DNA of 64,000 bases from Capitulum mitella (lineage: Eukaryota > Arthropoda > Thecostraca > Pollicipedomorpha > Pollicipedidae), in contig CP099846.1 in the NCBI GenBank assembly GCA_030062745.1, forward strand, positions 9,545,432 through 9,609,431. The letters run 5' to 3'. The notes under the pieces are model-generated. The model was not told where the DNA came from. It did no database searches and saw only the letters and a list, made by a program, of their open reading frames with translations. A program made the position numbers and the translations under genes. Each line of letters starts with the position of its first letter. Positions within the stretch are counted from its first letter, which is position 1. Positions 22,452 to 64,000 of this stretch are shown in pieces.

Positions 22452-22544
22452 TCAAGTCAGTAGATCCATGGAGAAGGCGGCGATCAAGTCCGTGTTCTGT
22501 GTGGCCTGCGACTCCCTGGCCTTGTGGTAACTTTGGGAGTATTC
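22452..22544 (-). CDS. unc-89: unc-89 exon z: C-terminus and stop
   Basis: Acceptor CCTCTTCAG|GAATAC, phase 0. Encodes [20 protein letters not shown], then [14 protein letters not shown] (TGA at 22454-22452). The junction NRLK|EYSQSYH fits the tail expected after PK2. Confidence 0.88.
   Translation of the reverse strand, partial: EYSQSYHKARESQATQNTDLIAAFSMDLLT

Positions 22545-64000: not shown

Follow-up and report, generated by a model that had tools for sequence, protein, structure and literature searches.

Gene content of the locus

The window analysed here, a stretch of 64,000 nucleotides from the barnacle Capitulum mitella, carries the 3' part of an obscurin/Unc-89 gene (Table 1) and, on the same strand, the gene GATB, whose three exons lie within positions 1–1419 (GatB_N, E = 3.5e-38). 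The 25 modelled obscurin exons are lettered a, b, c (a putative alternative last exon) and d to z without n, and all modelled introns are of the GT-AG type. With c left out, the spliced frame is open from a into p and another frame runs from late p to the stop codon in z; in the resulting protein, Pfam recognises I-set and fn3 domains and two Pkinase domains. The gene thus combines the features of obscurin/Unc-89, i.e., Ig and fn3 domains and two C-terminal kinase domains with a kinase of the obscurin type. Kinase 1 finds its best PDB match in the Obscurin kinase 8ak2 (E = 5e-82), with no gaps across the junctions g|h, h|i and i|j, and the alignment of kinase 2 to DAPK3 is gap-free across u|v and v|w. 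Because both alignments pass the modelled junctions without gaps, they indicate the protein-making copy of the splice sites that are repeated at exons g, i, u and w, while the choice of the used copy at f, o and r is based on reading frame and domain continuity.

Several features of the gene deserve mention in their own right. Kinase 1 (55835–51236, minus strand) carries the motifs HLG and DFS and kinase 2 (27914–22777, minus strand) the motifs HLD and DLG, which we take to be altered catalytic motifs; because of these alterations, kinase 1 at least looks like a pseudokinase. The large exon c (62460–61509, minus strand) is in frame after b and terminates in a stop codon, so that it looks like an alternative last exon that would yield an obscurin isoform without kinases. 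The reading frame, intact elsewhere, is broken by one base in exon p (47124–47014, minus strand) near GGGGAAAGG, through either an indel of the assembly or a genuine lesion. We also note an array of 4.5 copies of a 74-bp unit (95% matches, 21486–21889) between the end of the obscurin gene and exon 2 of GATB.

Table 1. The obscurin/Unc-89 gene and the tandem arrays at or near its splice junctions (positions in the window).
Feature	Positions	Strand	Junction	Unit and copies
3' part of obscurin/Unc-89 gene	22452–63713	minus		25 modelled exons; Ig, fn3 and two kinase domains
Array, donor of exon f	56452–56689	minus	last exon base 56666	unit about 21 bp, exon end plus GTAAGA
Array, donor of exon g	55402–55734	minus	last exon base 55667	64-bp unit, 5 copies, 96% matches
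Array, acceptor of exon i	52709–52916	minus	first exon base 52717	unit about 66 bp, 2.8 copies
Degenerate array, acceptor of exon o	47783–48147	minus	first exon base 47798	3 acceptor-spanning copies by scan
Array upstream of exon q	46681–46837	minus	near acceptor (46625), no contact	31-bp unit
Array, acceptor of exon r	29406–29790	minus	first exon base 29429	unit about 37 bp, 8 acceptor-spanning copies by scan
Duplication, donor of exon u	27655–27796	minus	last exon base 27747	62–63-bp unit, 2.3 copies, 93% matches
Array, acceptor of exon w	24887–25330	minus	first exon base 24912	unit about 56 bp, 6 acceptor-spanning copies by scan
Degenerate array near exon x	23752–23878	minus	48 bp downstream of donor (23926)	21-bp unit, donor-like

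Tandem arrays across seven splice junctions

Tandem repeats were located with a self-match mask (ungapped, 30-bp windows with at least 23 matches, offsets of 9 to 400, microsatellites blanked) that covers 4283 bases of the window in 30 intervals, compared with 0, 0 and 60 bases in three block-shuffled controls. Seven of the arrays that it marks in the obscurin gene contain a splice junction, namely the donors of exons f, g and u and the acceptors of exons i, o, r and w. In a gapped scan, each junction word was compared with as much as 600 bp of the intron on its own side. Splice-site-spanning local tandem copies turned up at the same seven junctions, out of 53, with best scores from 29 (i) to 90 (u) and a shuffle maximum of 25 (20 local shuffles at each of the 53 junctions). 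At all seven, the copies extend into the intron only.

An initial annotation of this DNA had listed ten arrays that touch an exon border or begin within about 25 bases of one. The seven above are firm, and those at q and x are near: by self-match the q array ends 56 bp from the acceptor, with one more degenerate unit, by eye, ending about 24 bp away. The donor had been placed inside the repeat unit at f, g, u and x, which we find at the first three; the array at x stays clear of its donor, and its donor-like unit scores only 25 in the scan. Upstream of GATB exon 2, the suggested tenth site, neither TRF (minimum score 30) nor the mask detects an array, only loose TCTGAC-type words being present, and the nearest array in the mask (1905–2135) is 486 bp off. 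The units at r and w contain the acceptor and the first exon bases just as had been described, and beyond that description we find the arrays at i and o to be acceptor-spanning as well. As the annotation had also recognised, the arrays differ in unit and period (about 21, 37, 56, 62, 64 and 66 bp).

The units at g and u consist of 58 exonic bases plus GTGAGC and of 56 exonic bases plus GTGAGAC, respectively, and at f six donor-spanning copies are seen by scan and ten further copies when the array is cut by hand; unit borders are cyclic, and the cuts given for g, u and f are one choice among several. By eye, copies one to four at g read GTGAG and the last copy reads AAATG/GTACAC, which would fit a present donor that was itself made by duplication. 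On the acceptor side, the acceptor is accompanied in the unit by about 10–13 exonic bases at r and by a few at o and i. The w unit carries GGGTCAG, and 18 coding bases are repeated exactly in the three units closest to the exon, of which one is used and two are intronic. The array at i is the weakest of the seven with one spanning copy at the score given above, and that at o joins two intervals of the mask. A perfect (AT)n microsatellite of 103 bp (47878–47980) interrupts the o array.

The arrays form a graded series in divergence, from 93–96% matches at u and g down to less than half of the dinucleotides kept at o (0.47) and x (0.38): u and g are hardly diverged, w is partly homogenised, r and f are intermediate, and o and x are nearly gone. 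This series bears on whether the arrays are false tandem duplications made at exons during assembly. The copies are so alike at g (96%) and u (93%) that a mis-joined haplotype could mimic these two arrays, and the assembly may hold errors elsewhere because the frame of exon p is broken by one base. However, copies have plainly diverged at f, i, o, r and x, where the units also differ, and w has two diverged classes of copy, which makes the assembler an unlikely source of these six; taken together, we regard an artefact as very improbable.

The direction of copying can be read at three junctions. The units include coding sequence that is constrained in the protein, i.e., the glycine loop of kinase 1 at g, a stretch of kinase 2 at u, and the residues VLDGLQ at w. 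Since kinase conservation fixes these coding parts, the copies at g, u and w are taken to have gone from exon to intron, and the exon copy is taken as ancestral because kinase 1 aligns to 8ak2 and kinase 2 to DAPK3 without gaps at the used junctions. Such protein-constrained bases within the units, together with the wide range of divergence, support recurrent short tandem duplication at GC-rich exon edges, one of the mechanisms that the initial annotation had considered.

Spare splice sites

The same annotation had offered two functional explanations, selection for redundant splice sites and a role in isoform choice, by which the arrays would be kept by selection. We scored retention of the splice dinucleotides in hand-cut, aligned copies of eight arrays (the seven and x), with the mean of all dinucleotides as expectation; one of 40 extra copies, gapped at the splice dinucleotide, was set aside. 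Degenerate units were left out (part of f at 56589; x at 23751, 23706 and 23668; r at 29750; w at 25339, 25300 and 25272; o at 48279; i at 52901), as was array q. Pooled retention is near background, with 29 of 39 kept compared with 26.2 expected. Donors fall below expectation (12/20, about 14 expected), which does not support selection for spare donors, while acceptors exceed it (17/19, about 12 expected). The acceptor value is biased by the choice of copies, because the cutting was manual and the several degenerate units omitted include one at o that lacks AG.

A frame scan took every GT or AG in the eight array stretches whose score equals or exceeds that of the weakest modelled junction (51 sites, some of which are not copies of the used site). 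Use of 47 of these is predicted to lead to a stop codon in the extension or the neighbouring exon. The exceptions are three acceptors at r, predicted to stay in frame without a stop and two of them copies of the used site, and one acceptor at o that would shift the frame without an early stop. A role in isoform choice is not supported on this basis, with r possibly excepted. Many spare sites do score like the used one, as selection would have it, and at g three spare donors score 9.4–9.6 compared with 5.0 for the used donor; leakage into unproductive transcripts is therefore a testable prediction. A C. elegans study ties an intronic minisatellite to multiple alternative splicing in its available excerpt (PMC4039745), which would likewise favour a function. 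Given the pooled retention, the donors and the stop codons, we nonetheless find it improbable that the arrays are maintained as spare splice sites or for the choice of isoforms.

Placement of the arrays relative to splice junctions

To compare the position of the arrays with chance, the 12 arrays of the gene (the two o intervals merged and four loose single intervals at 26746, 27021, 37404 and 37776 left out) were placed at random in 2000 draws with up to 60 exonic bases allowed, although the g array has 68. Seven of the 12 touch a junction, compared with 0.96 expected (p = 0.0005, the floor of 2000 draws). Matching flank GC to 0.06 or 0.04 raises the expectation to 1.85 and 1.94 (p = 0.0015 and 0.0005), and GC matching with a 25-bp margin gives p = 0.004–0.007; a second run that included the four loose intervals gave like results (p = 0.0005–0.0085). 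GC alone is thus rejected as the cause, because matching it lowers the excess but leaves it in place. The near-exon, whole-window and TRF tests allowed 70 exonic bases. When placements were confined to positions with an edge within 200–500 bp of a junction, 7 of 9 arrays touch compared with 2.2–3.1 expected (p = 0.001–0.011). Across the whole window, with two intervals at 18 kb joined and without the four loose intervals or the three that lie in exon c (61475, 61739 and 61858), a junction is touched by 7 of 21 arrays, compared with 1.29 expected (p = 0.0002); GC matching raises the expectation to 1.96 (p = 0.001). Weaker results came from rotation of the whole mask (7 touching, 2.97 expected, p = 0.033) and from TRF arrays alone (rows with period below 10 dropped), of which 5 of 13 in the gene touch compared with 1.05 expected (p = 0.002), or 1.97 with GC matching (p = 0.032).

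A position control looks at single junctions instead. Spanning copies are present at 3 of 25 donors and 4 of 27 acceptors, and the corresponding fraction for intron positions 45–300 bp away is 0.11–0.14, so that junctions are duplicated no more than the nearby intron; intron positions more than 300 bp from junctions are duplicated at a rate of 0.009 or less. Coverage by the mask is flat over the bins up to 300 bp (0.167, 0.169, 0.182, 0.195 and 0.163) without an extra peak at the junction, and then drops to 0.042 at 301–500 bp and 0.015–0.018 beyond. Microsatellites show no comparable fall in coverage with distance from the junction. The arrays are, in short, strongly concentrated in exon-flanking intron, and the placement tests suggest a moderate further excess on the junction itself of which the position control shows none.

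Within this one gene the excess of junction arrays over chance is real, and moderate once GC is matched. What is left, about seven where two to three are expected, could be chance in one gene or true junction bias. The former would mean that a gene with many short introns and GC-rich arrays caught the eye post hoc, an explanation that overlaps with neutral duplication and concerns the excess only. It has in its favour that we are dealing with one gene in one window and that p is about 0.03 in the weaker tests; against it, the self-match placement tests give p = 0.0002–0.009 for touching or for distances up to 25 bp, and we hold chance to be rather improbable.

Under the latter, tandem duplication in this lineage would have genuine hotspots at splice junctions or at exon edges within transcribed chromatin. 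Template switching might, for instance, be seeded by donor and acceptor consensus words that recur nearby, or breaks be promoted there by R-loops or the edges of nucleosomes. It is in line with such hotspots that the junction-touching excess persists after GC matching and within the near-exon zone, and that both little-diverged donor arrays, g and u, end just past GTGAG(A)C and restart at an exonic GAG. Yet breakpoint microhomology in these two is, by eye, at most about 2 bp, the TRF and rotation tests leave a weaker excess, the flat coverage and the position control reveal nothing special about the junction, and beyond the gene GC-rich DNA does carry arrays, at 0.26 and 0.09 of positions in the two bins with the highest GC. 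A hotspot is in our view unlikely, if less so than the other alternatives. We are equally doubtful that new arrays keep forming across exon-intron borders faster than in flanking intron of equal GC richness, which would make them a steady source of intron growth and cryptic splice sites.

Base composition, inserts and intron length

Introns have a GC of 0.63 at their edges and of 0.43–0.45 inside, and array coverage declines in parallel. Of the in-gene intron positions with a GC of at least 0.55 that lie more than 300 bp from junctions, hardly any fall in arrays (a fraction of 0.013 among 75 and of 0 among 69). The dispersed repeats that we detected in the window are absent (0%) from the first 300 bp of intron next to a junction and account for 18% of intron at 301–1000 bp and 8% farther away. 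They include a 1.16-kb repeat in inverted orientation (32002–33136 and 54023–55164, 70.7% identical) in two obscurin introns, and a family with 73–87% identity, perhaps transposon-derived, at 4899–4968, 6333–7256, 9205–10188 and 13614–14729 to the left of the gene and at 34329–34486 in the q-r intron.

Introns with arrays are longer than those without (median 1043 compared with 454 bp, 9 and 14 introns, p = 0.003), and the difference is 916 compared with 454 bp (p = 0.095) when the array is subtracted; intron length is therefore a partial confounder. We also considered intron gain by the AGGT model, in which donor and acceptor are two copies of one duplicated unit, and rejected it because no array reaches both ends of its intron: in all nine array-bearing introns the opposite junction is outside every self-match array, a check that decayed copies below the mask threshold would escape.

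Origin and fate of the arrays

With a probability of roughly two in three, we interpret the arrays as neutral, junction-spanning minisatellites that are born across GC-rich exon edges and decay there, so that the duplicated border stretches are most likely harmless clutter that the cell splices away. A short tandem duplication would fall across or beside an exon-intron junction, and the exon-proximal copy, i.e., the first donor or the last acceptor, would stay in use. The remaining copies would land in the intron and be spliced out, making the change nearly neutral; the duplication would be tolerated because one junction is intact and the copies are removed, while an equivalent duplication inside an exon would usually break the protein. 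Slippage or unequal exchange may then expand the duplicate into an array on the intron side, which point mutation would erode, and the divergence series from u and g to o and x would reflect differences in age. Arrays would gather near exons through the combination of GC-rich exon edges with purifying selection that cuts them off at the exon, and inserted dispersed DNA that dilutes the intron cores perhaps contributes a further part of the gradient.

Some of the observations count against neutral duplication, namely the junction excess under GC matching (7 compared with 1.9) and within the near-exon zone, the retention of acceptor dinucleotides, and the scarcity of arrays in GC-rich intron of the gene away from junctions. 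Should the excess extend to the whole genome, a bias of mutation towards exon edges would be indicated; should it not, the gene would illustrate how GC and selection at exons can by themselves make repeats look aimed at splice sites. Seven arrays of graded divergence in a single gene would allow the start, growth and decay of such repeats to be followed, and the leakage of duplicate splice sites to be asked about, with g and its three spare donors above the kinase-making one as a case in point.

Comparison with known systems

The initial annotation knew of no standard mechanism that seeds repeats preferentially at splice junctions, and single cases of such repeats have in fact been published. 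One is a minisatellite in an interferon-induced transcript, reportedly that of the 6-16 gene (IFI6/G1P3). By its title, this report describes a minisatellite that supplies multiple splice donors (Nucleic Acids Res 1995 23:1854, cited in PMC2572611), i.e., a tandem unit containing a donor. Arrays with a functional-looking splice site in the unit are what we find at the donors of f, g and u and at the acceptors of i, o, r and w; the published case, as titled, differs in being one array in one transcript, whereas the obscurin gene has seven such junctions of both kinds, known from DNA alone. The second is a set of human internal tandem repeats at exon-intron boundaries in segmental duplications (Genome Biol 2009 10:R137, PMC2812944). 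According to the excerpt available, these are minisatellites with a mean unit of 30 bp that sit on exon-intron borders and alter introns, a kind of overlap seen here for 7 of the 12 self-match arrays of the gene and 5 of 13 by TRF. Unlike our arrays, which are concentrated in obscurin, they amount in that excerpt to 27 intron modifications over recently duplicated human genes, are variable in copy number and come with RNA evidence.

Among the matches listed by our literature search, with most subscription journals outside it, there was nothing useful on barnacle or obscurin gene structure, and none described a gene with several such arrays or an enrichment at splice sites across a genome. The introns of earthworm metallothionein genes were rejected as a precedent, their minisatellites being intronic and not junction-spanning in the part of the source available (PMC12783039).

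Tandem duplication across a junction has been proposed as a route to new introns or alternative splice sites, for which well-supported natural cases are few according to the available text of a study of the potato RdRp gene (PMC4974935). In that gene, the same text describes a tandem duplication that crosses an intron-exon boundary, so that the duplicated segment spans an existing junction and carries splice signals as in obscurin; the potato duplication created a new intron, whereas in obscurin we see the existing intron lengthened and none added. "Introns from tandem arrays" (PNAS 2007 104:882, cited in PMC2812944) ties, by its title, tandem arrays to introns as well and differs, as cited, in dealing with alternatively spliced human introns of modern origin. 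For Drosophila, the excerpt available mentions a single intron gain reminiscent of tandem duplication (PMC2809761). Single precedents of junction-spanning repeats are thus published, and their recurrence within one gene is the notable part of the obscurin locus.
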